DNA from: a virus
IMG/VR virus record: IMGVR_UViG_3300005253_000341
Location: 1 to 48,425 of that record
DNA: 48,425 bases
Reading direction: 5' to 3' (one strand)
The position numbers and the translations under genes are program-made. The notes beneath the pieces were generated by a model. That model was not told the DNA's origin and did no database searches. It saw only the letters and a program-made list of their open reading frames with translations. Shown one piece after another: positions 1-38,113 of the stretch (its first letter is position 1; every line of letters begins with the position of its first letter).

Positions 1-180
1 ACCGCTGGCGAACGCCCCGCCTGCGTGAAGATCAGGGGAAGTTCCAAATACTCTAAGGCCGAGGATATACTCACGCAATCCTCGCTGTTTACATGAGTCG
101 AAGGTAGAAAGTATCGAACTATCTATTTTCGACGGGAAGAGGAGCTGAAGGGGCTCCTGAGACTCTATTGCTTGTTGCAT
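1..180 (-). CDS. Cas4/RecB-like PD-(D/E)XK exonuclease, N-terminal part, runs off left edge
   Basis: This is the first 60 residues of a nuclease whose frame is open to the window edge. ATG at 180 is preceded by AAGGA at a good distance, and it overlaps the end of the upstream gene in another frame. Residues about 31-60 contain STFDSCKQRGLREYILGL and SPDLHAGGAFA, the N-terminal signature of Cas4/AddB-like nucleases; Cys in STFDSC is the usual first ligand of their 4Fe-4S cluster. The same segment occurs in diverged form at the right edge (47501-48425), where the catalytic part lies. I read both as one gene spanning the junction of a circular genome. Two paralogues are the alternative. Confidence 0.8.
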   Translation of the reverse strand, partial: MQQAIESQEPLQLLFPSKIDSSILSTFDSCKQRGLREYILGLRVFGTSPDLHAGGAFASG

Positions 181-454
181 TGGCCAGTTCCTTAGCTACG
201 GTGTCATAGTATATGATAAGTGTACTGCCACGTATGCGAGTGCGAGCCTGTGGGAGGATGGATATCAAGTGTGCTCGGTTCTCCGGCGAGGCTTCAAGCG
301 TGGCGCTACGGAAGGCGTACAGGTGAGAGCGTAGGTTTCGGGCGGCGCGGGGCGAGTCACAGCCGATGGCTATCATGGAACAGCTTTGCCACGCACTTAG
401 GAAGAAGTTAGCGTAATGGGGGGGGTATGACTCGAACCGCCTGGGGGTAGTCAT
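119..454 (-). CDS. Hypothetical phage protein, paralogue of the gene at 2720-3127
   Basis: A 111-residue protein without a recognised domain. ATG at 454 shares its A with the TAA of the upstream gene (TAATG), implying coupled translation; a longer frame to 463 exists. It shares a pattern with the protein at 2720-3127: an aromatic-rich start (SYPPHYANFF versus SYAPEFLEFY), then SPRAARNLRSHLYAFRSA versus SKRAATSLRARLHALRNA. The repeated basic S-x-R-A-A-x-x-L-R core looks like a nucleic-acid or protein contact surface (inference). Its 3' end overlaps the exonuclease start. Confidence 0.6.
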   Translation of the reverse strand: MTTPRRFESYPPHYANFFLSAWQSCSMIAIGCDSPRAARNLRSHLYAFRSATLEASPENRAHLISILPQARTRIRGSTLIIYYDTVAKELANATSNRVSGAPSAPLPVENR

Positions 455-675
455 TAGCAACACCCTGCATTAGGCATGTAGAAGACTTTTTCCTCGTGGT
501 CAACCTGTAATGTAAAAATTGCGCTCGGCTGTTCATGTTCCTGTATCTGACAGCCGTTGTTGCTGTTTGCGAGGGTTCGGGCTCGCGCAAGGGCAGCCGC
601 GAGTACTACGACGCCCCCATCGCAGTGGTAACTGTCACTCATTCGGGCGACGTACTCCCATATGAAGACTTTCAT
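454..675 (-). CDS. Small hypothetical phage protein ending in NAGCC
   Basis: A 73-residue protein. It begins MKVFIWEYVARMSDSYHCDG, has an Ala/Arg-rich helix, and ends FYMPNAGCC. I recognise this kind of ending (FPxxGCC) from small uncharacterised phage early proteins, but no function follows. The paired terminal cysteines plus Cys18 could bind metal. Its stop overlaps the next start as TAATG. Confidence 0.55.
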   Translation of the reverse strand: MKVFIWEYVARMSDSYHCDGGVVVLAAALARARTLANSNNGCQIQEHEQPSAIFTLQVDHEEKVFYMPNAGCC

Positions 676-690
676 AGCGAGTCTCCTGGG

Positions 691-930
691 CTAGAACAGA
701 TCGAGAGAGGTCGGGGTAACGGGAGCCTTGCGCTTGGCCCCCGCGGCAGCGGCTGAGACCTTACGCTCGCTTCGCATACATCTCACCGCGAACTTAAGGT
801 GGGAGTCTGTAAGGGTTTCGCCTACAGCCCTCCGCATCCGAGCGTCATTGATAAAGGCAATGCGCTGCTCCGGGGTCATGGAGTCAGGATCGAGCGCTGA
901 GATTTGCTCGTCGGTGATAGGGCTAGACAC
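691..930 (-). CDS. Small hypothetical early protein, helical and basic
   Basis: A 79-residue protein. GTG at 930 is preceded by GAGGAG about seven bases upstream and lies just inside the end of the upstream gene. The pattern MTPEQRIAFINDARMRRAVG, then sDSHLKFAVRCMRSER, resembles small alpha-helical phage proteins with two predicted amphipathic helices. The C-terminus is Ala/Lys-rich and probably disordered. No function is assigned. Confidence 0.55.
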   Translation of the reverse strand: MSSPITDEQISALDPDSMTPEQRIAFINDARMRRAVGETLTDSHLKFAVRCMRSERKVSAAAAGAKRKAPVTPTSLDLF

Positions 931-1624
931 TGGGGGGCTCCTCTTTGGGTGGGTCGTTGAGATCGGGCAGGTCGTCGAGGGGGTCGGACTCGACGAGTCC
1001 ATCCAATTTCTTGAGGGCCTCCTCCTTCGTTACCTCGGTAACTTCAGCCACAGGCTCGATAACCGAGTCCGGCAGATCAACTGCGACGGGTTCGGCCTGG
1101 GCAGCCGCCTGCTCCAGGGCTGCAGCGGCTTGAGCCTGGGCCTCAGGAGGCAGGGAGAAATCAGCGGTGCCGGCGTCCTTGGCCAGAGCGGCCTCGACGA
1201 TCTTATCGGTAGCTGCCTTAACAAGTGGCAAAGCCACGTCCGGGGTGTCAACTGCGACAGGTGGGGGCTCGACACCCACCTGCTCCAGGACCCCATCGAC
1301 TCTAGTCTGGGCCTCAGGGGCGCGAGGAATGGGGTCCACAAGCGGCAAAGCCGCTGCCCCGGCCGCGACTGGAGGGCCTACGAGATATTCCTTCGGTGTA
1401 TCGGGCATCTTGTGGGGCGTCCAATCGGCCATGCGGTGGGCCTGGCCGCGGATAGAGGCGATGAGCTCTGGGTCTCTCCCGTAGCCTTCCAGGAGCTGGG
1501 CATAAAGCTCAACCACTTGGTAGGCTACAGCATCCTGGCCTCGGAGTAAGAGGACGGGTTCGTCCTCAGGTATGAGGTTCTGGGGGTCTTGGATGCGATC
1601 GTGGTCAGTCCGGGCGTGGCGCAT
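923..1624 (-). CDS. Hypothetical protein: conserved 70-residue N-terminal domain plus long Pro/Ala/Glu-rich tail
   Basis: A 233-residue protein. Residues 5-70 contain the motif LIPEDEPVLLLRGQD followed by a helix with HRMADW, a pattern I have seen in short phage and alphaproteobacterial proteins of unknown function. Residues 80-233 are low-complexity acidic/Pro/Ala sequence with repeated VAVDxPD segments (VAVDTPDVALP, VAVDLPDSVIEP), suggesting an internally duplicated, disordered tail of about 90 residues. The start overlaps the previous gene's end by 20 bases. No function is assigned. Confidence 0.65.
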   Translation of the reverse strand: MRHARTDHDRIQDPQNLIPEDEPVLLLRGQDAVAYQVVELYAQLLEGYGRDPELIASIRGQAHRMADWTPHKMPDTPKEYLVGPPVAAGAAALPLVDPIPRAPEAQTRVDGVLEQVGVEPPPVAVDTPDVALPLVKAATDKIVEAALAKDAGTADFSLPPEAQAQAAAALEQAAAQAEPVAVDLPDSVIEPVAEVTEVTKEEALKKLDGLVESDPLDDLPDLNDPPKEEPPSV

Positions 1625-1970
1625 TGGAGTTCTCCAAATAATGTTTGGCTATGGCCCGCGCTTCTCTTGCAGTCCGGGCACTTGTTGCCATGAAGGCACC
1701 TGACCGCCGATTTGCCTGTAGCGACCAACGGTGGTTTGTCAGGCCGTGTTTGATAGCCCAGCGATGTAAAGGGGACCGTGGAAAGCGTTTTTCCAATGAC
1801 CCAAGAATATGAAAGTTTGGGTAGATAACCGCTCCGCCATGTTCATTCGTGAAAACAAGACCGAGTGCCTGTTCTACTTCCTCTAAACTCTTAAACAGTT
1901 CCTCCGGGTCGCCGCCGCCAATAGAAAGAGTACCGGGGATTACCTCGTCCATGTAAGGTTGTGCGTTCAC
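1605..1970 (-). CDS. Hypothetical protein (121 aa)
   Basis: No recognisable domain. GTG at 1970 overlaps the TGA of the upstream gene (GTGA). A cluster of basic residues (RRSGAFMATSARTAREARAI) precedes the C-terminus, and the first half is acidic and mixed alpha/beta. It is co-transcribed with its neighbours from the promoter at 2370-2398. Confidence 0.55.
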   Translation of the reverse strand: MNAQPYMDEVIPGTLSIGGGDPEELFKSLEEVEQALGLVFTNEHGGAVIYPNFHILGSLEKRFPRSPLHRWAIKHGLTNHRWSLQANRRSGAFMATSARTAREARAIAKHYLENSNAPRPD

Positions 1971-2221
1971 TGTCTTCCCTTTTCGGGGGCTTGTGCCCCG
2001 CTTGCGTCGGCCATTTCGACGGGCGGGACGATGGCTGGCAGTGCCATAGTGGCCTCCACAGTAGTATTTCTAAGCCAGCGCTCTAGCAAGCCCACAATTA
2101 GTCTGCTGCGGGTTCCGTATTTGATCTTGCAGCGCACGGGGTCAAAGAGTTGCAGGTCTACGTCGGCGAGAACCGTCGTAGGGATTGAAACGCAAATACT
2201 GGTGAAATCATCTTTTGGCAT
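1967..2221 (-). CDS. Ribbon-helix-helix-like small protein, candidate DNA-binding regulator
   Basis: An 84-residue protein. Residues 8-20 (ICVSIPTTVLADV) could form the beta strand and first helix of an MetJ/Arc (RHH) fold, and GTRSRLIVGLLERWLRN (about 36-52) the second turn and helix; the order strand-helix-SR-helix is typical of the family. The C-terminal 30 residues look disordered. It is the first clear gene behind a strong operator-containing promoter. An RHH protein there would be a natural candidate to bind the dyad element, but this is inference; the fold assignment is by eye. Confidence 0.5.
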   Translation of the reverse strand: MPKDDFTSICVSIPTTVLADVDLQLFDPVRCKIKYGTRSRLIVGLLERWLRNTTVEATMALPAIVPPVEMADASGAQAPEKGRQ

Positions 2222-2361
2222 TAGAGTTTATTCCTTAAAGCAGTGGAGACTGGAATGGGAGGAGTCTCCACTGCCACAAATTTCATGGTTGGGCCTCGCG
2301 GAGCTATCGCATGATGACCTCCTGACCTTGGGGCTAGGGGAGTATATGGTCGAGCTTTCAT
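2221..2361 (-). CDS. Possible leader ORF (46 aa, or 21 aa from internal ATG 2286)
   Basis: An open frame between the promoter at 2370-2398 and the RHH-like gene, ending in TAATG with the next start. The first ATG lies almost at the predicted transcription start; the internal ATG at 2286 has a GAGG upstream. The frame covers a perfect 12-bp inverted repeat (2240-2251/2263-2274). Codon content is unremarkable. It may be a leader peptide or chance. Confidence 0.25.
   Translation of the reverse strand: MKARPYTPLAPRSGGHHAIAPRGPTMKFVAVETPPIPVSTALRNKL
2240..2274 (-). repeat. 12-bp perfect inverted repeat in a 5' leader
   Basis: GCAGTGGAGACT and its exact complement are separated by 11 bases. The repeat lies in the transcribed leader of the RHH-like gene, about 20 bases from its start. 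There is no T tract, so it is not a canonical terminator; an attenuator or RNA-stability hairpin is possible. Confidence 0.5.
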
Positions 2362-2369
2362 GATGTAAT

Positions 2370-2398
2370 ATTGTATCATACATTATATGGTGTGTCAA
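2370..2398 (-). promoter_or_regulatory. Leftward sigma70-type promoter with embedded dyad operator
   Basis: Read on the minus strand: TTGACA (2393-2398), 17-bp spacer, TACAAT (2370-2375). The spacer holds the element equivalent to TACATTATATGGTGTG (2379-2394 on plus), one copy of the genome-wide dyad. It drives the leftmost early genes (2221 down to the exonuclease). Confidence 0.8.
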
Positions 2399-2423
2399 GG
2401 CTTTTTTTGCTCGCTGGTGTCTT

Positions 2424-2723
2424 TTATTCCGTGAGCCATTCCTTTACCAATTCGGCGTGGCCTTTCTTTGCTTCCTCTTGAGTGGCGTATCTTCGGCAAT
2501 CCTCGTCGTGAGAGCTTCCTTCCTTGAATACCATAGTCTCGAAAAGGATAGGAGGGCCATCGCCGAAGTTGTGGTTAAGGGCGAGGAATACCGTACTCAC
2601 CCTGTAGTTTTCGTTCGAGTCAAAGGCGACCCTTCTGTCAGCAGTTTCAAACCATGCACCCCACTTAAGAATACAGGGCTCTGGCGTCGGGATGCCGTCT
2701 ACTAAGGTGTACCTGTTCATCAT
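2424..2723 (-). CDS. Conserved phage hypothetical protein (STVFLALNH / FETMVF family)
   Basis: A 99-residue protein. It contains RVSTVFLALNHNFGDGPP, ILFETMVF, RRYATQEEAKKGH and a C-terminal helix, the recurrent pattern of a very common small phage and prophage protein of unknown function. The length fits the family. ATG at 2723 overlaps the upstream TGA (ATGA). Confidence 0.75.
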   Translation of the reverse strand: MMNRYTLVDGIPTPEPCILKWGAWFETADRRVAFDSNENYRVSTVFLALNHNFGDGPPILFETMVFKEGSSHDEDCRRYATQEEAKKGHAELVKEWLTE

Positions 2724-3127
2724 TTGTTTTCTCCTCCACTAAAGATTTTTTTCATGGCCTCAGCTTGAGGATCAGAGGGCGTATCATTGCCTGCGGTGGG
2801 GGGAAGTTCAAGCTCTGGCTCTATACTGGGTAAAGTGTCAACTGTAATACCCGCGTCTGCTAGTGCTGGTAGGTAGGCCTTGTCACAGGGATTACCGATT
2901 AAGAGCCACCGGCCCTCCGTGTCGGGGGTATGAGGTACTGATATGGTAACTGAGTTGGCGATAGTAGTAAGGGGATGCTCCTCTTTTCGCATGGCGTTGC
3001 GGAGAGCGTGCAAGCGGGCACGAAGGGAAGTGGCTGCGCGCTTGGATTTGAGGTAGATGGTCTTGGGCTCTTGCGCTGCTTGGCGGTAGAACTCCAAGAA
3101 CTCCGGGGCGTAGGAGGTTACGGGCAT
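2720..3127 (-). CDS. Hypothetical phage protein, paralogue of 119-454
   Basis: A 135-residue protein. ATG at 3127 shares its A with the TAA of the tiny gene upstream (TAATG). Residues 22-40 (SKRAATSLRARLHALRNA) match the core of the protein at 119-454. The second half adds a mixed alpha/beta segment (RWLLIGNPCDKAY) and an acidic, probably disordered tail that the paralogue lacks. Function unknown. Confidence 0.65.
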   Translation of the reverse strand: MPVTSYAPEFLEFYRQAAQEPKTIYLKSKRAATSLRARLHALRNAMRKEEHPLTTIANSVTISVPHTPDTEGRWLLIGNPCDKAYLPALADAGITVDTLPSIEPELELPPTAGNDTPSDPQAEAMKKIFSGGENK

Positions 3128-3213
3128 TAACAGATGCTCCACTTGTGCTTCTCGTTGGCAAGTTTGAGGATACTCCAGTCAGCCTCGTCGTCGGTAATGA
3201 TGCGGTCTGGCAT
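3127..3213 (-). CDS. 28-residue acidic microprotein
   Basis: The frame reads MPDRIITDDEADWSILKLAN and ends with a WSIC tail. It has AAGGAG nine to ten bases upstream of ATG 3213 and ends in a TAATG junction with the next gene, so translation signals are present at both ends. It is the first gene behind the operator element at 3232-3264. No function recognised. Confidence 0.5.
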   Translation of the reverse strand: MPDRIITDDEADWSILKLANEKHKWSIC

Positions 3214-3231
3214 GATGTAGGCTCCTTGTGT

Positions 3232-3264
3232 GACTATATGGTGTGTAAATTGCACATTATATGG
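3232..3264. promoter_or_regulatory. Double half-site operator/promoter element (copy A)
   Basis: GACTATATGGTGTG (3232-3245) faces TGCACATTATATGG (3251-3264): two inverted half-sites of the genome-wide dyad, six bases apart. It lies between the 3' end of one gene and the small gene at 3127-3213. No TTGACA box is evident, so activation by another factor or a weak promoter is possible. Confidence 0.6.
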
Positions 3265-3265
3265 T

Positions 3266-3613
3266 TTAAGGCTTTAACCCTCTGCATCGCGGCCGTGCCT
3301 TGAGGGCCGCGATGCAGAGGGCGAGGGCGGGGGTTGGTGCATCACCAAATTTCCCGGTGCCGTATCCCCCCGACCACAGAAGAGCACGCCAGCCTTTCCG
3401 ATGTCTTGATTGTTTAATCTCCACATCCCACCCATCCGGCACCAGTATCAGCGCGGCGTCGAGGAACGCGCCGACACCAACAAATAGCCGGGCATCTTCC
3501 CGCGCCTTGGCGCTTATCCATCCTTGCTTTCGGGCATAGTCTATCGCTTCAAGGATTACGTTGCCTTGTTCCGCCTCCGTCGCCGCCTCCAGCTTTGCGA
3601 TGATGTCAGTCAT
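3266..3613 (-). CDS. Conserved small phage protein (LVPDGW ... TPALALC family)
   Basis: A 115-residue protein. The pattern LEAATEAEQGN ... DAALILVPDGW ... APTPALALCIAALKAR is a widespread phage family of unknown role, usually ending near the ALKAR motif. Here about nine extra residues follow, encoded by an inverted copy of the preceding bases (see the terminator at 3278-3321). The start overlaps the upstream stop in ATGACTGA. Confidence 0.75.
   Translation of the reverse strand: MTDIIAKLEAATEAEQGNVILEAIDYARKQGWISAKAREDARLFVGVGAFLDAALILVPDGWDVEIKQSRHRKGWRALLWSGGYGTGKFGDAPTPALALCIAALKARPRCRGLKP
3278..3321 (-). terminator. 17-bp perfect hairpin formed by the 3' end of the coding region
   Basis: CCCTCTGCATCGCGGCC (3278-3294) pairs with its exact complement (3305-3321) around a 10-base loop. 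On the minus strand the stem is followed by an A/T-rich stretch (TTAAAGCCTTAAA) but no strong T run. It probably ends or protects the upstream transcript just before the operator element at 3232-3264. Confidence 0.55.
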
Positions 3614-3710
3614 CTAGTCCTCCCTTTGTATCCCAAGGTGTAAGCATGGCGTAGAACACGAGGCAGATTATAACCAACGCCACTAAACTTGCGATGATGT
3701 TACTTGTCAT
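3606..3710 (-). CDS. 34-residue single-span membrane micropeptide
   Basis: MTSNIIASLVALVIICLVFY is one hydrophobic helix (residues 4-23), followed by a short polar tail (TPWDTKGGLDD). Start and stop both overlap neighbours (ATGA upstream, ATGACTGA downstream). A GC-rich phage keeping this frame tightly packed argues it is real. Role unknown; small holin-like or regulatory membrane peptides are possible. Confidence 0.6.
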   Translation of the reverse strand: MTSNIIASLVALVIICLVFYAMLTPWDTKGGLDD

Positions 3711-3784
3711 GGGAGCAACCACGCACCAAGCAAAATCGCTGCAACTACCCCCGTATAAGCCCAGAATATTAGTTCACTCGTCAT
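3707..3784 (-). CDS. 25-residue single-span membrane micropeptide
   Basis: It starts MTSELIFWAYTGVVAAILLG and ends AWLLP, one transmembrane helix with almost no tail. It starts within the last codons of the MazZ-like gene and ends in ATGA with the next membrane micropeptide, which also begins MTS. The two form a tandem pair. Function unknown. Confidence 0.55.
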   Translation of the reverse strand: MTSELIFWAYTGVVAAILLGAWLLP

Positions 3785-4538
3785 GGGGCTTGTCCCTCAT
3801 ATGTTCCATTACAGTTCCGTCCGTTGTCGCCCGCCAGTCGGGCCACTCTCGACCCTCGTTCGTGACTTGCTTGGCTACCAAGGCAGACACAACATCCTTG
3901 GGGGTATGCCCCGCCCTCCGGGCACCGTCGAGGGCTAATAGGATTACATCTATCCATTCGACGAGATCGGTGGGCGCGGCCTCTATCTCCGCCAGCTCCT
4001 TCCTGATATGGTTGGTTATCCCGGTTGTTCTACGGCCCGGCCCAAACTTGGCTTCGGTAAAGGCCCCATGCCTTTGTAAGAACGCCACTAGGTCGAAACT
4101 GGCTACCTCCCAGGGCTGTGTGTTCTCCAATGCTTTAACTAGCGCCATATAGGCTACTTGGTTTAGATCGGGACTATCCTCCGCTACCCCATCTTCTAAG
4201 AAAAAGTCGATAGCTTCCCGCAGCCGCTTGTTCGCCTTCGCCAGCGCCTCATTCCTTTCATCAGCATCCCACGCTAATTTTAGTGCCAGCGTAAGTCTCT
4301 TCGCCAGCACGGAGTCGTCGGCTTCGATGGCGGCAAGGGCTAGAAACATTGCGTCTTCTTTGCCTAGTCTAAAACTTGGAAACAGCACATTCCATTTGCG
4401 GATTAAAGCGTCTGCTATACGATTTCTTCGCTCCACGCGCTCATCCATGGTGGTCATGGCTTTGGCTCCTTGTGGTTGCCCGACCTGCCGTTCGGCGCAA
4501 CAATAATCACAGTCACACGTCGGCTTGTGGCTACCCAT
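3774..4538 (-). CDS. MazZ-like dATP/dGTP diphosphohydrolase (DUF550) with helical N-terminal extension
   Basis: A 254-residue protein. Residues 145-254 match the DUF550/PF04447 family, whose phage member MazZ hydrolyses dATP and dGTP: FGPGRRTTGITNHIRKELAE, then DLVEWIDVILLALDGARR, AKQ and REWPDWR. The acidic residues of KELAEIE and EWIDV would bind the metals of the MazG-type all-alpha site. Residues 1-30 are Cys-rich (CDCDYCC, possible zinc site) and 30-140 are helical, atypical for the family. In Z-genome phages MazZ supplies dGMP to PurZ and removes dATP; no PurZ is encoded here, so nucleotide-pool control is the safer reading. Confidence 0.8.
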   Translation of the reverse strand: MGSHKPTCDCDYCCAERQVGQPQGAKAMTTMDERVERRNRIADALIRKWNVLFPSFRLGKEDAMFLALAAIEADDSVLAKRLTLALKLAWDADERNEALAKANKRLREAIDFFLEDGVAEDSPDLNQVAYMALVKALENTQPWEVASFDLVAFLQRHGAFTEAKFGPGRRTTGITNHIRKELAEIEAAPTDLVEWIDVILLALDGARRAGHTPKDVVSALVAKQVTNEGREWPDWRATTDGTVMEHMRDKPHDE

Positions 4539-4800
4539 CGTCTGGCTCCTCGTTCATGATCTTGTGCATCTCAACCCACGTTTCGTTGTCCGCCCACTCC
4601 CTAGCGTATTCCAGCGCTCGTTCGAGGCGGTTGATCCTGTCCAAGGTCCACGGGAGGTCTACACGAGCGTGTTCAACAAACTTCCTTTCTTCAACATCTC
4701 TTTTCCATGCAAGAGAAGGACGGGAAGCTTTAATGTCATCGGCGTAAAACTTCTCAAACGCTTTGCACCGCTCCCTGATCTCGTCCAGTCTGTCAGCCAT
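4531..4800 (-). CDS. Small helical early protein (DRLDEIRERC family)
   Basis: An 89-residue protein starting MADRLDEIRERC, with GGAGG placed for ATG 4800. The N-terminal DRLDEIRER helix, and the later DRINRLERALEYAREW helix, are the hallmarks of a small uncharacterised phage family. It probably forms a helical hairpin. Its stop overlaps the MazZ-like gene start. Confidence 0.6.
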   Translation of the reverse strand: MADRLDEIRERCKAFEKFYADDIKASRPSLAWKRDVEERKFVEHARVDLPWTLDRINRLERALEYAREWADNETWVEMHKIMNEEPDDG

Positions 4801-4827
4801 CATCACCTCCACGATTTGTCCAGTGCA

Positions 4828-5061
4828 TCATTGCAATGGCGGTTCGTCGGACTTGTCACTGCTGTGGCCGCCGCAACTGTCCCATCCGCCTGCGTGGTGG
4901 TCGGTATAACAGTTCTCACAAAATGAGACGCGGCCATGATCGCAGCCATGATAACACTCATGGACATTTGCTATTCCAGAACCGTGTGCCGCCATAATAT
5001 CGGCCTCGAGGGGCTTGTAGTTTTGGCACGGTTGCTCGCCTACGGTATATTCATTTGGCAT
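4828..5061 (-). CDS. Cys/His-rich small zinc-binding protein
   Basis: A 77-residue protein starting MPNEYTVGEQPC after GGAGGA. Cys and His cluster in residues 30-70: HECYHGCDHGRVSFCENCY, then DHHAGGWDSCGGH. The spacing fits two zinc knuckles of treble-clef or RING-like type. Function unknown; zinc microproteins like this are common in phage early regions. Confidence 0.55.
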   Translation of the reverse strand: MPNEYTVGEQPCQNYKPLEADIMAAHGSGIANVHECYHGCDHGRVSFCENCYTDHHAGGWDSCGGHSSDKSDEPPLQ

Positions 5062-5079
5062 CGTTTTGTCCTCCAATTC

Positions 5080-5439
5080 TTAAAATGCCGATAGGGGTGT
5101 AGGCCTTACAAGTTCGCCTGTGGGTACATCCCTGAGTTCCAGTACCTCCTGTTGGTAACTCTCTTCTTTGTAACAGTTCTCACAGGCCATAAGGCTAGAG
5201 TCTCCACCTTCGCGTATCTCCCGTGGTAGGCCGGGGAAGCCAGTACCCTGAGCTTTTATTACTGTTGTGCCCTTGCGGTGGGTGTTGGAGTAGAGGTACA
5301 TGAGCTTAGGATTGGGGACTCGGTATTGGGTTCCACAGCGCCTGCAGGTGTAGGTAAGGATGAAAAGTATCTCGGCTAGAGGTATGGTGACCTCGGAAGG
5401 TGTGGGAGGCTCTGTGAGGTTTAATTCGATTTCGTGCAT
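5080..5439 (-). CDS. Hypothetical zinc-ribbon protein (119 aa)
   Basis: Two CxxC pairs, CRRCGTQYRVPNPKLM at about 32-47 and CENCYKEE at about 86-93, would form a zinc ribbon around a beta-rich core. The N-terminus (ELNLTEPPTPSEVTIPLAE) is a short strand/linker. No function recognised. Confidence 0.6.
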   Translation of the reverse strand: MHEIELNLTEPPTPSEVTIPLAEILFILTYTCRRCGTQYRVPNPKLMYLYSNTHRKGTTVIKAQGTGFPGLPREIREGGDSSLMACENCYKEESYQQEVLELRDVPTGELVRPTPLSAF

Positions 5440-5483
5440 GAGGCTATTCCAGGCATTGTATCATGTTGGCGAAGATAAAGCCT

Positions 5484-5666
5484 TCAAGAAGTTTCATGAG
5501 TCTTCTCCTTGATCTGGCAGTCAATCACATGGGGAGAGTGCTGAGGGTCGGCTGGAATTAGTAGCTTGACCTCAAGGTTGCGAAGCTCGGCAGTATGTAT
5601 AAGGTCTCGCAAGCTCTTGATCTGCCGCTCAATGAGTAAGACTATGCGGAGCTGGGTGGTGTTCAT
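5484..5666 (-). CDS. Hypothetical protein (60 aa)
   Basis: An N-terminal helix with heptad-like leucines (IVLLIERQIKSLRDLIHTAE) is followed by a beta/polar tail. ATG at 5666 overlaps the stop of the membrane micropeptide upstream (ATGA). No family recognised. Confidence 0.45.
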   Translation of the reverse strand: MNTTQLRIVLLIERQIKSLRDLIHTAELRNLEVKLLIPADPQHSPHVIDCQIKEKTHETS

Positions 5667-5758
5667 GATAGGCTCTCCAGAAGTGAGAATATAAGAGTTA
5701 ATACCCCGTATGTGAGTCCGGCTGTGACTGCGAATGTGACTAGCTGGAGAGGAGTCAT
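5663..5758 (-). CDS. 31-residue single-span membrane micropeptide
   Basis: The frame reads MTPLQLVTFAVTAGLTYGVL and continues TLIFSLLESLS, almost entirely hydrophobic. It is locked into the operon by ATGA overlaps at both ends. It resembles the other micropeptides at 3606-3784 and 47403-47501 in size and layout, not in sequence. Confidence 0.55.
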   Translation of the reverse strand: MTPLQLVTFAVTAGLTYGVLTLIFSLLESLS

Positions 5759-5973
5759 GAGGGGTCAGCCGTATCTCGCCTGGGGACTCCGGGAGAGGTA
5801 CCAGTAGAGGGCGTCGCCCAGCTCGGACGCTTCAGGGCGTGGGAGCGGAAAACCACAGCGGCTTCGAGTATCTGGGGGGTGGTGAGGGGAAGATCGTACT
5901 TACGGTTGAAGTGTTTGCGAATGCTGGCTATGGCCCGGCTTGTTGCTGGCGTGATATAGACTCTGGTTGTCAT
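5755..5973 (-). CDS. Small RHH-like or helical early protein (72 aa)
   Basis: The N-terminus RVYITPATSRAIASIRKHFN, then LTTPQILEAAVVF, could form a strand-helix-helix (RHH-like) unit; the last 25 residues are Pro/Ser/Thr-rich and disordered. AGGAG precedes ATG 5973. This is a second, weaker candidate for the operator-binding protein. Function unproven. Confidence 0.45.
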   Translation of the reverse strand: MTTRVYITPATSRAIASIRKHFNRKYDLPLTTPQILEAAVVFRSHALKRPSWATPSTGTSPGVPRRDTADPS

Positions 5974-5988
5974 GGCTAGCTACTCCTG

Positions 5989-6168
5989 TCATGCGCGTGG
6001 AATTACATTTCTGCCGCAATCGGGGCAGTCGTGACAGTCCCGAACTGCGCGCTCGCTGTATATGTGCCCGCAGTTGCAGCAAGCAAAGGTATAGGCCGGA
6101 CGTGCGGCTATGATAGCTGCGAGTGCGTGGCGCAGGCGTTCCTTATCGCTCATGAAGGGGGAGTTCAT
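5989..6168 (-). CDS. 59-residue zinc-ribbon protein
   Basis: An N-terminal helix (SDKERLRHALAAIIAARPAY) is followed by a classic ribbon: CCNCGHIYSERAVRDCHDC and PDCGRNV. Four or more Cys in CxxC/CxxC arrangement would hold one zinc. ATG 6168 overlaps the upstream TGA (ATGA). Probably a DNA/RNA- or protein-binding early factor (inference). Confidence 0.65.
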   Translation of the reverse strand: MNSPFMSDKERLRHALAAIIAARPAYTFACCNCGHIYSERAVRDCHDCPDCGRNVIPRA

Positions 6169-6362
6169 GAGAGGCTCTCATCGGGTATCTCGGAGATCCC
6201 CTCAAGGACATTCAAGAGTATACTCTCCGTGAGGGAGGAGATGGGAGTGTAAATGAGTTTACCTCCTTCCCATGTTAGGTTCGTGTTCTCTCGCCCGTAT
6301 ATGAGGATGGTGCTTACTAGCTCGCGCAGGGGATTGTACTTGTCAGGCAGTATCGATGTCAT
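6165..6362 (-). CDS. Hypothetical protein (65 aa)
   Basis: A mostly amphipathic sequence without a recognised motif (NPLRELVSTILIYGR, SSLTESILLNVLEGI). It is the first gene after the promoter at 6401-6429 and leads the operon with the zinc-ribbon gene. Confidence 0.5.
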   Translation of the reverse strand: MTSILPDKYNPLRELVSTILIYGRENTNLTWEGGKLIYTPISSLTESILLNVLEGISEIPDESLS

Positions 6363-6400
6363 GAGGGTAACTCCTGTATCCTAATTGCGCCAATGGTGGT

Positions 6401-6429
6401 ATTGTATCACATTATATGGTGTGTGTCAA
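6401..6429 (-). promoter_or_regulatory. Leftward sigma70-type promoter, spacer filled by a 16-bp dyad operator
   Basis: Minus strand: TTGACA (6424-6429), 17-bp spacer, TACAAT (6401-6406). The spacer is occupied by CACATTATATGGTGTG (6408-6423), the best copy of the dyad CACAyyATATrrTGTG. A protein bound there would block RNA polymerase directly. Confidence 0.85.
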
Positions 6430-6432
6430 GGG

Positions 6433-6463
6433 AAAAATGAGTAGTGGGGAAATTAATCCCCAC
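6433..6463 (-). terminator. Leftward rho-independent terminator
   Basis: GTGGGGA (6444-6450) pairs with TCCCCAC (6457-6463). On the minus strand the hairpin is followed by CTCATTTTT. It ends the transcript of 6485-6784 immediately before the next promoter. Confidence 0.7.
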
Positions 6464-6484
6464 CACCAGTTGAAAGGTTCGCGG

Positions 6485-6784
6485 TTAGAGTTCCCAACAT
6501 ACCTTGCCCCGGCGTATTACCTGGGCGTACTTCCCGTCAGGTGTTGGGTTGCGTTGAGCCTCGACGGCCGCAAGGACTTCACGGATTATCTCTTGTTGCC
6601 CCCTTGGCTTGAGATGACGCAGGCACTTGGTCTTGTCCACGAGTTGGCTTACTTTGAACGGTACGTCGAGTTGCATGATGTCGCAGATTTCGCCCCATAC
6701 CTCATCGAAGTCGAACACTGAAAGGTGTGTATGTGTGTAAGGCCCGATAGCGCTTTTCGTGTAATCGTGGGCGGGTGTACCCAT
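6485..6784 (-). CDS. Hypothetical early protein (99 aa), own transcription unit
   Basis: It starts MGTPAHDYTKSAIGPY at ATG 6784 with GGAGG upstream. It has a C-terminal basic segment (RHLKPRGQQEIIREVLAAVE) and ends KVCWEL. It sits alone between the promoter at 6850-6878 and the terminator at 6433-6463, with a leader element shared with two other early genes. Function unknown; a monocistronic unit next to the origin-like block suggests an immediate-early gene (inference). Confidence 0.6.
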   Translation of the reverse strand: MGTPAHDYTKSAIGPYTHTHLSVFDFDEVWGEICDIMQLDVPFKVSQLVDKTKCLRHLKPRGQQEIIREVLAAVEAQRNPTPDGKYAQVIRRGKVCWEL

Positions 6785-6793
6785 GATGACAAC

Positions 6794-6838
6794 CTCCATA
6801 TTCAATTGTAAAAGAACAGGTCCGGGCAATTTTGCCCG
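6794..6838 (-). promoter_or_regulatory. Early leader element (copy 1) plus 5' hairpin
   Basis: Upstream of the gene at 6485-6784, the minus-strand leader carries TGTTCTTTTACAATTGAATA just before the GGAG ribosome site. The block recurs before 8419-8649 and, more loosely, before 7648-8265. A perfect 7-bp stem CGGGCAA/TTGCCCG (6823-6829/6832-6838) precedes it. It may control translation. Confidence 0.45.
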
Positions 6839-6849
6839 ATCGTGATTAT

Positions 6850-6878
6850 GTGGTAACACAAATAAAATGGCGTGTCAA
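6850..6878 (-). promoter_or_regulatory. Leftward sigma70-type promoter
   Basis: Minus strand: TTGACA (6873-6878), 17-bp spacer, TACCAC (6850-6855). It resembles the promoter at 8324-8352 (TTGACA-17-TACCGT). It drives 6485-6784. Confidence 0.6.
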
Positions 6879-6937
6879 CAACTAAATTCAACTATGGATA
6901 GCTGGCGGGTCGTGGGGTTGGTAGTCAAATAGGCTGG

Positions 6938-7274
6938 ATTATATAATTGCCCCTAATATGCCCTAATAAATCTGTATGAGACCTAGATATGCCCTAATAT
7001 CCCCTGTTATACAGCTAAATACACCCCCCCCCCATTTAATGATACCGTATCTAGTATCCGGGGAGCTTCCAGGTAACTATGTTTCGACTTACTAATAAAA
7101 AAAAAAAACTAAAAGAAACTAAAGGAGCCAGCTTAATTATATGGTGTGAGCCCGGTGGCATTAAATGGTGGCCCCCCCCCGTTAGCTGCATAACAGGCGA
7201 TAACAGGGGATATGAAGGGGATGTGGGGAAATATTAGGGGGTATTAGGGGCAATCGGGGCGATTATATGTTGTG
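6938..7274. other. Gene-free inverted-repeat block, candidate replication origin
   Basis: No gene is seen in 6879-7307. The left arm has ATTATATAATTGCCCCTAAT, GCCCTAATA repeats and ATCCCCTGTTATACAGCTAA (6999-7018). The right arm has TTAGCTGCATAACAGGCGAT (7182-7201, 18 of 20 complementary), a second ATAACAGGGGATAT, and TATTAGGGGGTATTAGGGG with CAAT (to 7254). Between the arms lie C10 (7024-7033), A12 (7097-7108), C9 (7172-7180) and operator half-sites. Iterons, AT-rich patches and dyads fit an origin; a recombination or packaging site is the alternative. Confidence 0.5.
7136..7148. promoter_or_regulatory. Operator half-site in origin-like block
   Basis: ATTATATGGTGTG matches the right half of the dyad element exactly. 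A second, weaker copy (ATTATATGTTGTG) is at 7262-7274. Confidence 0.5.
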
Positions 7275-7307
7275 CATATGGTACAGCATATAGTTGGATT
7301 GTGGGCG

Positions 7308-7340
7308 AAAAAATCCCCCAAGCTGCTTCACCTGGGGGGA
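7308..7340 (-). terminator. Leftward rho-independent terminator
   Basis: On the minus strand TCCCCC (7340-7335) pairs with GGGGGA (7319-7314), with an inner AG/CT pair, and is followed directly by TTTTTT (7313-7308). It ends the transcript of 7648-8265 and 7360-7560 before the origin-like block. Confidence 0.75.
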
Positions 7341-7359
7341 AGTTACAGGGGAAAAACAT

Positions 7360-7560
7360 TCATTTCGTAAGAGTGTGTTCGTCATTGTTCTCGTCGATAA
7401 CAATGATCCCGGTTACTTCAGAGTCCATGAAGGCCAACAGAACGGCGGTTGGTGTATATGGAATACACTTCATCATTATACCCCGTACAGCGAACGCGTT
7501 CTCCGGCCGGAAGGGTTTCTTATCCTTGCCCAGTACACCCTTGCATTTCTTGTATTTCAT
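7360..7560 (-). CDS. Hypothetical early protein (66 aa)
   Basis: It starts MKYKKCKGVLGKDKKPFRPE, with AAGGAG eight bases before ATG 7560. The first 20 residues are strongly basic and the rest is beta-rich and ends acidic (DENNDEHTLTK). It is the second gene of the unit starting at 8324. No family recognised. Confidence 0.5.
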   Translation of the reverse strand: MKYKKCKGVLGKDKKPFRPENAFAVRGIMMKCIPYTPTAVLLAFMDSEVTGIIVIDENNDEHTLTK

Positions 7561-7647
7561 GCCAGTGACTCCTTGCCAGTTGTGCTTCAACAATACCCTG
7601 AAAGGGAAACATTCTGTCTCCCCTTCCGGTTAGTGTCGGCGCTTGTG

Positions 7648-8265
7648 TTAGAACCCTTCGAGTCCTTCCTTCGACCCGGGGGCTTGTGCCGCCGCGTCAG
7701 CCGCACGCTTGGTCGATGCTTCGAGTTGAAGTTGCTTGAACTCCGCTTCGATATCCTTGTTGGCCATTGCGCCGTCGCGGCCTTCCTTGGTGGAAACCTT
7801 GACGCGGTTGGCCTCCATTCGTTCCTTGTTTTCCGTCGGGCTGCCGTCGGCGTCGGCATCCCAGGTGCCGGCCTTGACACAGGCACGGGCGATAGCCAGG
7901 ATAAGCACTCCAGTCTTCGGGCCGGCACCTTCGCCAGGCTTGACCCACTCATCGCCGTTCAGACGTTCAATCATCGTCTCGTGCGACTCGCGGGCTTCTT
8001 CCCAAGTTGTGGCCTTGTTGCCTTCGTCGCCGATCTTCTGGGCGCCTCCGTGCCAGGCACAGGCCCGGGCACAACCCTTTCCGATCTCGTTGAGCCTGAA
8101 AACGGTTTTTTCGCCGTTCAGCTTGCCGTCGATACCGTAATACCGGAACTCCAGTTGCACAACATCCGGCCCGGCATGCCGTGACTCGGTGCCGTCCTTG
8201 TTGACGTAGACCTTGGAACAGAACTTCTTGCGAGTGGCTTTCGCCACCGTGGCTTCTTCAGCCAT
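7648..8265 (-). CDS. Hypothetical, probably abundant early protein (205 aa)
   Basis: Residues 12-100 are mixed alpha/beta (KFCSKVYVNKDGTE, FRYYGIDGKLNGEKTVFRLN, RACAWHGGAQKIGDEGN). Residues 120-205 are helical, charged and Ala-rich. The codon choice (C/G-ending, few rare codons) resembles the capsid and ssDNA-binding-like genes, which suggests high expression. It has its own promoter (8324-8352). I do not recognise a domain; roles in host takeover or DNA binding are guesses. Confidence 0.7.
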   Translation of the reverse strand: MAEEATVAKATRKKFCSKVYVNKDGTESRHAGPDVVQLEFRYYGIDGKLNGEKTVFRLNEIGKGCARACAWHGGAQKIGDEGNKATTWEEARESHETMIERLNGDEWVKPGEGAGPKTGVLILAIARACVKAGTWDADADGSPTENKERMEANRVKVSTKEGRDGAMANKDIEAEFKQLQLEASTKRAADAAAQAPGSKEGLEGF

Positions 8266-8273
8266 GATCGTTA

Positions 8274-8298
8274 CTCCTATACAATGTCAAAGAACAGT
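8274..8298 (-). promoter_or_regulatory. Early leader element (copy 3, divergent)
   Basis: Minus strand TGTTCTTTGACATTGTATAG followed by GAG, before the start at 8265. It aligns with the leaders at 6794 and 8656 allowing two gaps. It also contains a TTGACA. Confidence 0.35.
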
Positions 8299-8323
8299 CG
8301 CAATGTCTTCGTGTCGATTTTCC

Positions 8324-8352
8324 ACGGTAACATATAATCAATATCGTGTCAA
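8324..8352 (-). promoter_or_regulatory. Leftward sigma70-type promoter
   Basis: Minus strand: TTGACA (8347-8352), 17-bp spacer, TACCGT (8324-8329). It lies directly after the terminator of the preceding unit. Confidence 0.6.
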
Positions 8353-8372
8353 GCGGAAAATACATGGACTCG

Positions 8373-8404
8373 AAAAAAAAACCCCCGGATTGTGAGTCCG
8401 GGGG
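8373..8404 (-). terminator. Strong leftward rho-independent terminator
   Basis: CCCCCGGA/TCCGGGGG perfect 8-bp stem (8382-8389/8397-8404) with a 7-base loop, followed on the minus strand by nine T (8381-8373). It ends the unit of 8419-8649. Confidence 0.9.
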
Positions 8405-8418
8405 ACAGAATTGCTTCA

Positions 8419-8649
8419 TTACTCGGTTGTGACCTTGCCGAATACACCAACCAGTGTCTCTTTATCGGTGTATCGAAGCAATGTACGTATCACACATTCC
8501 ACAACCTCCGGCTTATACAAACAACCACCGTGAGCCTGCGTTGCATAAATGCACGTCGTCAGGATGGATTGTTGAAGTTCAGATTTTGAGCAGTTTCTTT
8601 TCTCCACCTGACGTTTTGTGAAGGTTCTTGCCCTTGTTGGGTAAGCCAT
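8419..8649 (-). CDS. Small early protein (76 aa), first leftward gene
   Basis: It starts MAYPTRARTFTKRQVEKRNC at ATG 8649 with GGAG upstream. It has a basic N-terminus, then a helical segment with VVECVIRTLLRYTDKETL. It lies alone between the divergent control region and a strong terminator. No family recognised. Confidence 0.5.
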   Translation of the reverse strand: MAYPTRARTFTKRQVEKRNCSKSELQQSILTTCIYATQAHGGCLYKPEVVECVIRTLLRYTDKETLVGVFGKVTTE

Positions 8650-8655
8650 GAGTGT

Positions 8656-8680
8656 CTCCATCTTCAGTTGTAAAAGAGCA
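8656..8680 (-). promoter_or_regulatory. Early leader element (copy 2)
   Basis: Minus strand TGCTCTTTTACAACTGAAGA followed by TGGAG; 21 of 25 bases match the copy at 6794-6818. It is located just before the start of 8419-8649. Confidence 0.45.
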
Positions 8681-8885
8681 ATCGAACGGTATATGTATCA
8701 GGCCACACCTCGGCCCGAATGTCAATCCCCTATCTTTGCGAACGTCTCGCAACAACTCGCCAGGACCCGCACCCGGGGCGCTGTCCCCTGTCACTGCAAC
8801 CGCGAGTAAGTCGTATCCCCCCTTCCCTCCCACGGGGGGCGCCGCGGCTCTGTATCAATGACCACTCGGAAAACATTTTGTATTT

Positions 8886-8913
8886 TTGCACACTATATAG
8901 TCTAAGTTATAAT
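8886..8913 (+). promoter_or_regulatory. Rightward promoter overlapping an operator half-site
   Basis: TTGCAC (8886-8891), 16-bp spacer, TATAAT (8908-8913). The spacer begins with the inverted half-site, GCACACTATATAGTC at 8888-8902. It probably drives the late operon. Confidence 0.6.
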
Positions 8914-8959
8914 CCCCCACCTAGCTCTATATAATCTCCCACATTTCCCACATTTCCCC

Positions 8960-8988
8960 TTGACAGGCTTAGCTAACTATGATATGAT
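8960..8988 (+). promoter_or_regulatory. Rightward sigma70-type promoter
   Basis: TTGACA (8960-8965), exact 17-bp spacer, TATGAT (8983-8988). The predicted start near 8995 gives a 28-base leader before the TerS start codon. This promoter has no dyad copy, so late genes may have one regulated and one unregulated promoter. Confidence 0.8.
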
Positions 8989-9022
8989 ATACGATCAATA
9001 TAGCTCTGTAAGGAGCAGGAAC

Positions 9023-9532
9023 TTGGCCGAAAGCAACCAAATTCGCCACTCAGGAACCCCCCGCCACGAGGCCATTGTGGACTGGGAGCTACTTAATCCT
9101 GGGGATACCAGACGGAACTGTGCTTTAGCCTTGGGCATAAGCGAGTGTGGGCTGAGCATTATCTACAATTCTGACGCCTTTATCGACTATCGCTCCCGGC
9201 GCATGAGGGAACACCAAGCCCTCGTGAGCGAGAGCGTGATTGAGAAGACCGAGGCTGTGGCTAAGATAAGCCTGGATATTCTGGAAGAGAGGTTCGACCA
9301 GGAACGCAAGGTCATTCCCCTTGGTGGGGTTAAAGATACTGCTGAAATGGCCCTTAAGGCCTTGGGTTTCGGCCAGCCGCGCCCCGGGAACTACCCGCCG
9401 GGTGGGGGCAATGTTACTGTCATAGTCGGCGCCAGCCCGGAGCAACTAGCCCAGGCTCGGGACAGAATGAAGACTATCAATGCTACGGTTGTTGAGGAGG
9501 AACCAACCCCTGATAAACAGGTCGCCCCCTGA
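9023..9532 (+). CDS. terS: Terminase small subunit-like protein
   Basis: A 169-residue protein. TTG at 9023 has AAGGAG seven bases upstream; a longer frame from 8960 starts inside the promoter and is rejected. Residues 30-60 (CALALGISECGLSIIYNSDA, then FIDYRSRR) look like an HTH followed by the recognition segment of podoviral small terminases. A helical middle and a Gly/Pro-rich tail follow. It is first in the late operon, upstream of TerL. TerS would bind the packaging site and regulate TerL. Assignment is by position and HTH pattern. Confidence 0.65.
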   Translation: MAESNQIRHSGTPRHEAIVDWELLNPGDTRRNCALALGISECGLSIIYNSDAFIDYRSRRMREHQALVSESVIEKTEAVAKISLDILEERFDQERKVIPLGGVKDTAEMALKALGFGQPRPGNYPPGGGNVTVIVGASPEQLAQARDRMKTINATVVEEEPTPDKQVAP

Positions 9533-10049
9533 TGGCTTCCGTCCTGCGGGGGAGGTATCCTCTGCTCAGTTCTCGCCTACACCGCCTTCGTTTCTTAAGA
9601 CTCGCAGAGTCAAGGGCAGTAGAGCCGATGGAATTCGCTACGAAAACAAGGCCCAGGCGAAACTACTCGCGGCGAGACCCCACTCTTATGTCCCCTCGCC
9701 GTGGCTTAAGTTTAACCCGGCAAGTTGGGATGCTAAGTCTGGTGATCCTTATTGGCTTTGGTGTCAGCCTGACGGTCTGGACTTTGATCTCAATATTGGC
9801 CTTATCACAATTGTGGAGTTCAAACTTGCCCACACCCCGAACGCCTGGTGGCAGACGCGGCGGCTTTACGAACCTGTGGTCAGGAAACTCTTCCAGGGGG
9901 CTCCCTGGCGGTATGCTATTATTGAGATTGTCAAGTGGTATGACCCTGATACTGTATTTCCTGAGGAACTTTATTTCATTAAAGAGTTTTCTCTCGCGCA
10001 TACTAGGCCGGGCCGGTTCCACCTGCACATATGGAATGGAAGGGACTAG
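9480..10049 (+). CDS. PD-(D/E)XK nuclease-like protein between TerS and TerL
   Basis: About 189 residues from ATG 9480. It overlaps the terS end, and the start is uncertain because the first 45 residues are low quality. The core shows YENKAQAKLL, WLKFNPASW, WCQPDGLDFDL and ITIVEFKLAHTPNAWWQTRR: D of QPDGLD and E-x-K of VEFK form a PD-(D/E)XK catalytic triad as in VRR-NUC/holliday-resolvase-like enzymes. Sitting inside the packaging module it may trim or resolve DNA before packaging (inference). Confidence 0.65.
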   Translation: MLRLLRRNQPLINRSPPDGFRPAGEVSSAQFSPTPPSFLKTRRVKGSRADGIRYENKAQAKLLAARPHSYVPSPWLKFNPASWDAKSGDPYWLWCQPDGLDFDLNIGLITIVEFKLAHTPNAWWQTRRLYEPVVRKLFQGAPWRYAIIEIVKWYDPDTVFPEELYFIKEFSLAHTRPGRFHLHIWNGRD

Positions 10050-10055
10050 AGCCTG

Positions 10056-10151
10056 ATGAAGAAGGACGCGAAATGTGCTGCCTGCGGGGCTACAAGATCG
10101 GGCGACTCCCGGGTAGTATGTGATAGGTGTGGGTGCAAATGGATGCGCTAG
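10056..10151 (+). CDS. 31-residue zinc-ribbon microprotein
   Basis: It starts MKKDAKCAACGATRSGDSRV and ends VCDRCGCKWMR. Two CxxC pairs (CAAC and CDRC) separated by 13 residues form a minimal zinc ribbon. ATG 10056 follows the nuclease stop by six bases; the frame overlaps the TerL start by 13 bases. Its position in the packaging module suggests a DNA- or terminase-binding cofactor (inference). Confidence 0.6.
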   Translation: MKKDAKCAACGATRSGDSRVVCDRCGCKWMR

Positions 10152-11653
10152 CCCCTCAGCCTTCCACCTCCATGTCTGTAGAGGAGCTTGTCAACCTCGG
10201 CGCTGTTGACAACGAGTTCTTCTCGAGGGTATTCTTCCCCAAGACTGTGCGGCAGCCATTTGCCCCCTATCACGCACACGTCTGGAATGACCTCGAAAGC
10301 GAGTCCCGACTAGTTAATGAGTTAATCTTTCGTGGAGGAGCTAAGACCTCCATCGCCCGCATGTATACCGCCAAGCGCATTGCCTACGGCCTTGCTCACA
10401 CTATACTCTATGTAGGTAAGAGTGAAGGCCATGCCCTGCGCAGTATCAAGTGGCTCAAGCAGAATATCGAGTTCAACCACGTTTTCTCTCAAGTGTTCAA
10501 TCTCCGCCGGGGTTCAAAGTGGCAAGATGGTGAGGCGGAGATACACAGAGGCTCAGATGAGCATCCTGTATGGATCATGGGGACGGGCATTACTGGCTCG
10601 GTCCGTGGTATTAACCAGGATGACTTCCGGCCGGACCTTATAGTCCTGGACGACTGCCTCAACGAAGAGAACTCCGCAACCGCGGACATGCGGGAGAAGA
10701 ATAGCAACCTTATCTACGGCGCGCTTATCGAAAGTCTTACCCCCGCGAGCGAGTCGACTGACGCCAAGTTGGTAATGCTACAGACTCCTCAAAATCGGGA
10801 AGATGCCTCGATGCTTGCGCTGAAAGACTCGGCTTGGCGAAGCTCCGTCTTCGGTTGCTGGACTGAAGCCTCGAAGGGACTACCGTTACATCTCCAAGAG
10901 TCCATCTGGCCTGAGCGGTGGAGTAGTGAGACTCTGCGGAAAGAAAAGCGCGAGGCTATCGAGCGCAACAAGCTCTCAGTCTGGCTGAGAGAGAAGGAGT
11001 GTCTGCTAGTCTCCCCCGAGACCTCAGCCTTCAAGGCTATCTGGCTGCAGTACTACGATCTCCTGCCCGAGCAAATGGTGAAAGTGCTTGTGATTGATCC
11101 CGTACCGCCTCCGAGTGCTATCCAGATCGCCAAAGGTATGAGAGGCAAGGACTATGAGGCTTTTGCGGTAGTAGGGAAGTGCAAGGGTAAGTACTACCTG
11201 CTAGAATATGAGCTTAACCGCGGTCATGATCCCTCCTGGTCGAAGGCAACCTTTTTGCGCTTGTGCTTCAAGCACAATCCCAGGAGAGTGATTGTGGAGT
11301 CTATCGCATATCAGCGCACCCTCGCCTGGATACTCCGGCAGGCAATGACAGAGCAAGGTCGGTACTGGGCCATCAAGGAGACTGACGATAAGCGCAGCAA
11401 GTTCGATAAGATCGTGGACGGGCTTAATGGACCCGCGGCCGAGGGAGCTTTCTTCATCCATAAAGAGCATCATGAGTTCGCCGCGCAGTTTACTGACTAT
11501 CCCGATGTGGCGAATGACGACCTGCTAGAGGTCGTAGCGTTGGGCGTGGCAGAGCTAGCTACTACCGTTTTCGACTATACCGACGAGGAAATGGACGAGG
11601 CCTCGAATGAAAACTCCATCCGCAGGCTGGTCTATCAGAGGGGGGCTCCATAA
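10139..11653 (+). CDS. terL: Terminase large subunit (packaging ATPase/nuclease)
   Basis: About 504 residues from ATG 10139 (a GTG at 10127 is also possible). Walker-A-like RGGAKTS at about 65-71 and Walker B DLIVLDDC at 166-173 mark the ATPase; the C-terminal RNaseH-like nuclease has VIDP near 318-321, VIVES near 384-388 and a late DDLLEV. The length and the RGxxKTS variant are typical of podoviral enzymes. It pumps DNA through the portal encoded next (overlapping start). Confidence 0.93.
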   Translation: MDALAPQPSTSMSVEELVNLGAVDNEFFSRVFFPKTVRQPFAPYHAHVWNDLESESRLVNELIFRGGAKTSIARMYTAKRIAYGLAHTILYVGKSEGHALRSIKWLKQNIEFNHVFSQVFNLRRGSKWQDGEAEIHRGSDEHPVWIMGTGITGSVRGINQDDFRPDLIVLDDCLNEENSATADMREKNSNLIYGALIESLTPASESTDAKLVMLQTPQNREDASMLALKDSAWRSSVFGCWTEASKGLPLHLQESIWPERWSSETLRKEKREAIERNKLSVWLREKECLLVSPETSAFKAIWLQYYDLLPEQMVKVLVIDPVPPPSAIQIAKGMRGKDYEAFAVVGKCKGKYYLLEYELNRGHDPSWSKATFLRLCFKHNPRRVIVESIAYQRTLAWILRQAMTEQGRYWAIKETDDKRSKFDKIVDGLNGPAAEGAFFIHKEHHEFAAQFTDYPDVANDDLLEVVALGVAELATTVFDYTDEEMDEASNENSIRRLVYQRGAP

Positions 11654-13572: not shown

Positions 13573-13608
13573 ACTATATCGTGTGTGAAATGCACAACAT
13601 ATGGTGTG
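13572..13608 (+). promoter_or_regulatory. Operator/promoter element inside late operon (copy B)
   Basis: GACTATATCGTGTG, then TGCACA, then ACATATGGTGTG: inverted half-sites facing each other directly after the portal stop. It fills the whole intergenic gap, leaving no clear Shine-Dalgarno for the next gene; a secondary promoter for the scaffold and capsid genes is likely (inference). Confidence 0.55.
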
Positions 13609-13611
13609 AAA

Positions 13612-25687: not shown

Positions 25688-25721
25688 ACTATATAATGTG
25701 CAATCTTCACACCATATAATG
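25687..25721 (+). promoter_or_regulatory. Operator/promoter element inside late operon (copy C)
   Basis: GACTATATAATGTG, six to seven bases, then CACACCATATAATG: two inverted half-sites in the gap before the tail stabilisation gene. It gives two TATAAT hexamers 23 bases apart, so it could be a promoter. Confidence 0.6.
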
Positions 25722-25734
25722 TAAGGCAGACACT

Positions 25735-38063: not shown

Positions 38064-38079
38064 GAGAGTTCCTTTTCTG

Positions 38080-38113
38080 GACTATATAATGTGCATTTCG
38101 CACACCATATAAT
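38080..38113 (-). promoter_or_regulatory. Operator/promoter element in replication operon (copy D)
   Basis: GACTATATAATGTG, seven bases, CACACCATATAAT: the same inverted half-site arrangement as at 25687. It fills the gap between the polymerase C-terminal gene and the deoxyribosyltransferase-like gene. Confidence 0.6.

Follow-up and report, generated by a model that had tools for sequence, protein, structure and literature searches.

Genome organization

The window, i.e. the whole stretch of DNA analysed here, is the 48,425-base IMG/VR virus record IMGVR_UViG_3300005253_000341. Its genes fall into two blocks. The leftward one extends from 6362 to position 1 and continues from 48424 to 36448; the rightward one (8960-35802) includes the terminase, SU10-type portal, head and tail genes. 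The two are separated by a region with little convincing coding sequence (6,860-7,640), of which the non-coding part 6938-7300 has poly-A and poly-C runs as well as GC-rich short repeats, is partly conserved in a related contig (L008, see below) and is a possible replication origin; within it lies a 23-nt inverted repeat (6946-6968 and 7232-7254, 91% complementary). An exonuclease-like gene is interrupted at the record ends (1-180 and 47501-48424, - strand), both of which bear a similar, non-identical stretch (GLREYILGL...SPDLH.GGAFA.G); this points to a genome that is circular or has terminal redundancy, or else to an assembly whose end is imperfect.

Among the other genes, 3774-4538 (dATP/dGTP pyrophosphohydrolase, PF04447), 37662-38063 (DUF1937) and 41289-41843 (TSCPD/ribonucleotide-reductase-like) belong to nucleotide metabolism, and this set possibly serves modified-base or dNTP-pool control. 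DNA polymerase A is apparently split between a short polymerase-domain piece (38114-38914) and a fusion of uracil-DNA-glycosylase and 3'-5' exonuclease (39371-41152). Moreover, 42041-43435 encodes a ParB_N domain fused to an N6/N4 DNA methylase, with no ParA partner recognised, and the 1659-aa late protein encoded by 30823-35802 is similar to phage proteins of very large size, DarB-like antirestriction families among them.

A 16-bp palindrome in single and tandem copies

Dispersed over the window is a 16-bp palindrome with the half-site CACAYYATAT and the variant TAGACTATAT (Table 1); in the site alignment the half-sites appear as CACACCATAT and CACATTATAT, and TAGACTATAT is often found on the outer side of pairs. 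The motif is present at all nine places listed in an earlier reading of this DNA (the original prediction) and well above chance when compared with shuffled sequence: over the whole window CACAYYATATRRTGTG with up to three mismatches occurs 14 times (1.04 expected) and the half-site with up to one mismatch 21 times (6.59 expected), with none of 100 shuffles reaching either number, both counts being partly circular because the consensus was built from the very sites counted. Free of this circularity are the spacing of the sites, their intergenic position and their conservation in the two relatives L007 and L008. Specifically, 12 of the 14 sites (up to three mismatches) are intergenic, the intergenic share of the window being 7.7% according to our own gene list, and when the sites are counted as 10 independent places, eight of them intergenic, a binomial calculation by hand gives about 5e-8. 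The remaining matches, 26407 and 27843, are weak, lie within genes and look like chance occurrences. An RNA hairpin function was considered and rejected, since at 3230 and 25685 pairing of the arms would involve A-C mismatches in the transcribed strand; searches for Rfam families and tRNAs found none.

Table 1 Promoters, predicted operators and candidate regulator genes in the window
Position	Strand	Feature	Remarks
2370-2398	-	leftward promoter TTGACA-17-TACAAT	single operator 2379-2394 (TACATTATATGGTGTG) overlaps spacer
6401-6429	-	leftward early promoter TTGACA-17-TACAAT	perfect operator 6408-6423 in spacer
6850-6878	-	leftward promoter-like copy TTGACA-17-TACCAC	degenerate operator 6859-6874, 4 mismatches
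8885-8913	+	rightward promoter-like TTTGCA-17-TATAAT	single operator 8889-8904 (CACACTATATAGTCTA); upstream of late promoter
8960-8988	+	probable late promoter TTGACA-17-TATGAT	without overlapping operator
7133-7148	.	single weak operator TTAATTATATGGTGTG	non-coding control region
3230-3268	.	tandem pair 3230-3245 / 3253-3268	between leftward genes 3266-3613 and 2720-3142
7259-7297	.	degenerate pair 7259 / 7282, 4 mismatches each	adjoins leftward terminator 7338-7315, non-coding control region
13570-13608	.	tandem pair 13570 / 13593	gap between portal gene and next structural gene; conserved in L007 (4154/4177)
25685-25723	.	tandem pair 25685 / 25708	between tail-assembly-chaperone-like gene 25253-25687 and virion gene 25735-26100
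38078-38116	.	tandem pair 38078 / 38101	between polA-like 38114-38914 (-) and DUF1937 gene 37662-38063 (-)
1967-2221	-	candidate regulator, 84 aa, RHH-like	first gene after 2370-2398 promoter
5755-5973	-	candidate regulator, 72 aa, RHH-like (TTRVYIT strand, two helices)	sequence pattern only
6485-6784	-	weak candidate regulator, 99 aa, possible HTH-like tail	downstream of 6850-6878 promoter-like copy

The single units at 2379, 6408 and 8889 are found in the spacers of sigma70-type promoters. The palindrome had been placed inside the 17-bp spacer of two leftward promoters, which is correct for 6408, where 16 of the 17 spacer bases belong to the operator. It is almost correct for 2379, where the operator covers 14 spacer bases and the last two of TTGACA. 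Both promoters rank among the top three sigma70-type matches (11/12) in positions 1-14500 of the window and, like the 6850-6878 copy, belong to the direct-repeat family D4. That 8889 lies in a third spacer was missed in the original prediction; its offset is the same as at 2379.

Five pairs of sites lie less than 60 bp apart when up to four mismatches are allowed, and all five are exactly 23 bp from centre to centre (0.32 close pairs, at any distance, expected in shuffles), with a linker of 7 bp between the paired palindromes in each. They had been described as half-sites facing each other six to seven bases apart; the half-sites do face each other, and the spacing is exactly seven in every pair. 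What had escaped notice is that each belongs to a complete 16-bp palindrome, of which it is the inner arm: the flanks, often TAGACTATAT, complete each facing half-site, and the pair is therefore a 39-bp tandem of two operators. Among the 39-bp composites (five copies in the window and two in relatives) A..ATAT..TG is invariant in each arm, and the pair copies have linker sequence in common, in direct or inverted orientation. Four of the pairs (3230, 13570, 25685 and 38078; two leftward and two rightward) occupy short gaps just upstream of genes within operons, and the orientation of pairs relative to genes is mixed, with no bias. The tandem pairs show no conspicuous sigma70-type promoter, and we rejected them as sigma70 promoters given that the consensus -35 is absent; the promoter match at 38062-38090 is directed away from the leftward gene.

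These four pairs, at 3.2, 13.6, 25.7 and 38.1 kb, follow one another at intervals of about a quarter of the genome, and several sites flank the non-coding 6860-7300 with its 23-nt inverted repeat (6946/7232), as might be seen if the sites served partition or replication, i.e. as dispersed centromere-like sites of the kind known from phage N15 or as origin elements. The even spacing is post hoc and leaves out pair 7259, sites occupy promoter spacers, and the proteins searched include no ParA-like protein, only the ParB_N-methyltransferase fusion; we regard this as the least probable of the explanations weighed here.

Conservation in relatives and clade distribution

Searches with the terminase and portal yielded two fragmentary relatives, the short contigs L007 and L008, which are about 71-75% identical to the window in these two proteins. 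Both of these short contigs keep sites at orthologous places, and do so despite about 25-29% protein divergence and a GC content of 43-45% vs 53% in the window. Specifically, L007 has a pair with the 23-bp geometry between the portal stop and the next gene, which is the place of the window pair 13570. L008, syntenic with window 7090-13500, has a pair (196/219) at the place of 7259/7282, with 18 identical bases around the left part and an identical flank AATCGGGGCGATTATATG, and, where the window has 8889, a single site that precedes the late promoter (1195-1223, TTGACA-17-TATAAT, the equivalent of 8960). The number of paired sites expected in L007 and L008 by shuffling is 0.000. Finally, the L008 homologue of gene 7648-8265 has a leftward promoter, TTGACA-17-TATGAT, whose spacer holds the single site 964. 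The operator offset within the promoter varies by up to about 5 bp among 2379, 6408 and L008:964, which fits occlusion of polymerase and not a precisely phased activator contact.

In the window 8889 does not overlap the probable late promoter 8960 but lies upstream of it, and the same holds for its L008 counterpart, an arrangement that is also compatible with an activator. One protein might thus repress the leftward early promoters and activate the late promoter from 8889, giving an early-to-late switch: the window and L008 each have a single site upstream of a strong late promoter, behind a common TTTCCCCTTGACA, and the distances from site centre to -35 (63.5 and 29.5 bp) differ by about three helical turns. 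We consider such a dual regulator unlikely, as there are two examples only, an activator is not needed by the late promoters, which come close to consensus as they are (11 and 12 of 12), and the window site has a promoter of its own, TTTGCA-17-TATAAT, in whose spacer it lies.

The motif is absent from relatives below about 66% portal or terminase identity, in which little or no gap separates the portal gene from the one that follows. Kept in L007 and L008 and absent below about 66%, the element therefore belongs to a clade, for which it can serve as a marker, the transition falling between about 66% and 70% protein identity. One pair occupies a post-portal gap that is absent altogether from these more distant relatives, and together with the common linker sequence, direct or inverted, this could be taken to mean that the 39-bp pair is a dispersed short cassette spreading among intergenic gaps, with regulation secondary (cf. 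the mobile intergenic cassettes of T4-type phages). A cassette leaves the single 16-bp units in promoter spacers unexplained, and the diverged relatives keep the orthologous positions; we find this explanation highly improbable.

Single-sequence searches with 1967-2221, 7648-8265 and the terminase gave no loci, no terminase relative was found in bacterial genomes, and a search for an own repeated dyad in the genome of L009 gave nothing clear. The exact paired pattern was found in two stretches among 2.9 million viral contigs and in six among 84,980 bacterial genomes, numbers that by our own estimate are close to chance, in contexts that are terminator-like or unrelated; there is therefore no widespread host regulon with this exact paired site. 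With a relaxed paired pattern 23 stretches were found in viral contigs, mostly AT-rich ones, none of which had a homologue of the window proteins tested. Another contig, L005 (30% GC), has a 33-bp perfect palindrome of the same shape ahead of a gene (CTTATATAATGTGTATGATACACATTATATAAG, 4523-4561), which is probably unrelated to the window element.

These counts bear on whether the phage has borrowed sites of a host regulator, the closest known consensus being the NrdR box, acaCwAtATaTwGtg. The likeness lies in the 16-bp AT-centred palindrome with ACA/TGT arms, in the half-site ACAYYATA, which resembles the ACACWATA of NrdR (PMC4009431), and in the paired use, and the phage encodes the TSCPD/ribonucleotide-reductase-like protein and the dATP/dGTP pyrophosphohydrolase. 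Good binding by NrdR requires two boxes separated by a spacer of 14-17 or 24-27 bp (PMC12051234), whereas each of the five window pairs has a 7-bp spacer and several sites stand alone; the register at the centre also differs (ATAT vs TATA between the arms), and on spacing and register we ruled out NrdR boxes. Structural genes are also among those with sites, and the exact paired site was not found as a regulon in the 84,980 bacterial genomes scanned. Since the paired pattern is at chance level in bacteria and NrdR fails on spacing, a host regulator is very unlikely.

Predicted operator function and candidate regulators

The element is real, conserved and operator-like, and a repressor-operator function is probable: like dispersed operators of phage repressors, the sites are enriched, placed in promoters and intergenic regions, and conserved at orthologous places (in two short contigs). 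We favour, as the likely explanation, that they are operators of a phage-encoded, clade-specific repressor, which would act by promoter occlusion and, at internal gene boundaries, through cooperative pairs. According to the original prediction one protein could coordinate the whole programme. Spacing, position and conservation in two relatives support part of this, an operator-like element linked to the control regions of early, replication and late genes; the single coordinating protein stays a conjecture, as no DNA-binding protein could be tied to the sites.

For the favoured repressor we suggest two modes of action. A single unit in the -35/-10 spacer would, when occupied, exclude RNA polymerase, at leftward promoters (6408, 2379 and the degenerate 6859) and at one rightward promoter (8889). 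Two units with a 7-bp linker, their centres 23 bp (about 2.2 helical turns) apart, would give stronger cooperative sites upstream of intra-operon genes (3230, 13570, 25685 and 38078) and in the control region (7259). The 23-bp geometry would allow cooperative binding of two dimers; alternatively, the pair may act as four half-sites 11-12 bp apart, suited to a row of ribbon-helix-helix dimers. Protein bound to a pair may silence weak internal promoters or impede passing polymerase, and from the finding that no sigma70 promoter stands out at the internal pairs we infer either a roadblock or an unrecognised weak promoter. In a more far-reaching version, which we estimate to be unlikely, cooperative dyad pairs at internal gene boundaries act as elongation roadblocks in a phage clade without recognised integrase or repressor, and a single small protein specific to the clade, possibly of RHH type, thereby throttles early, replication and structural operons in many places.

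Comparable arrangements are known. The lambda oR/oL operators (CI/Cro) are palindromes of about 16-17 bp over the -35/-10 of early promoters, with adjacent centres about 23-24 bp apart, and the sites described here are alike in palindrome size, early-promoter overlap and 23-bp pair geometry; they differ in being spread genome-wide in ones and twos, and no CI/Cro-like protein was found among the proteins searched. The conserved inverted repeats (CIRs) of the Streptomyces phage phiC31 are also many short intergenic palindromes around the genome, to which one phage repressor binds; they differ in sequence from the window motif and are not known to form fixed 23-bp tandem pairs. The stoperators of Cluster A mycobacteriophages are likewise distributed across the genome, where the repressor bound to them stops elongation, and also cover the early promoter (PMC9283540, PMC6550527), but lack symmetry and mostly face the same way with respect to transcription, whereas the window sites are symmetric dyads of mixed orientation. 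For an uncultured group of phages with an SU10-type portal our data provide a defined, testable regulatory code (16-bp site, 23-bp pair geometry and list of controlled genes) and raise the question of whether apparently non-integrating phages retain a genome-wide repressor circuit.

As to the protein, neither a known repressor family nor a CI/Cro-type HTH repressor gene was recognised among the window proteins searched (a subset of the ORFs), and, within the libraries and proteins covered, the phage indeed has no obvious repressor. Three small genes are candidates (Table 1), none of which gave matches in the phage collection; the two RHH-like ones have no Pfam, PHROG or PDB match. The 5755-5973 gene sits in the leftward block downstream of the 6401-6429 promoter and has no homologue among the loci fetched, which suits a clade-specific regulator and proves nothing. 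The structure model of 1967-2221 (pLDDT 66.4) is helical where expected, with no PDB fold match, and that of 6485-6784 is unreliable (pLDDT 43.5). Orthologues of 1967-2221 occur in the genomes of L009 and L010, both of which are without the motif, and this gene is consequently not uniquely tied to it. In the L009 genome an XRE-type HTH gene (L026:4597-4878, -) adjoins the RHH gene, at the place where the window has the unrelated 2424-2723.
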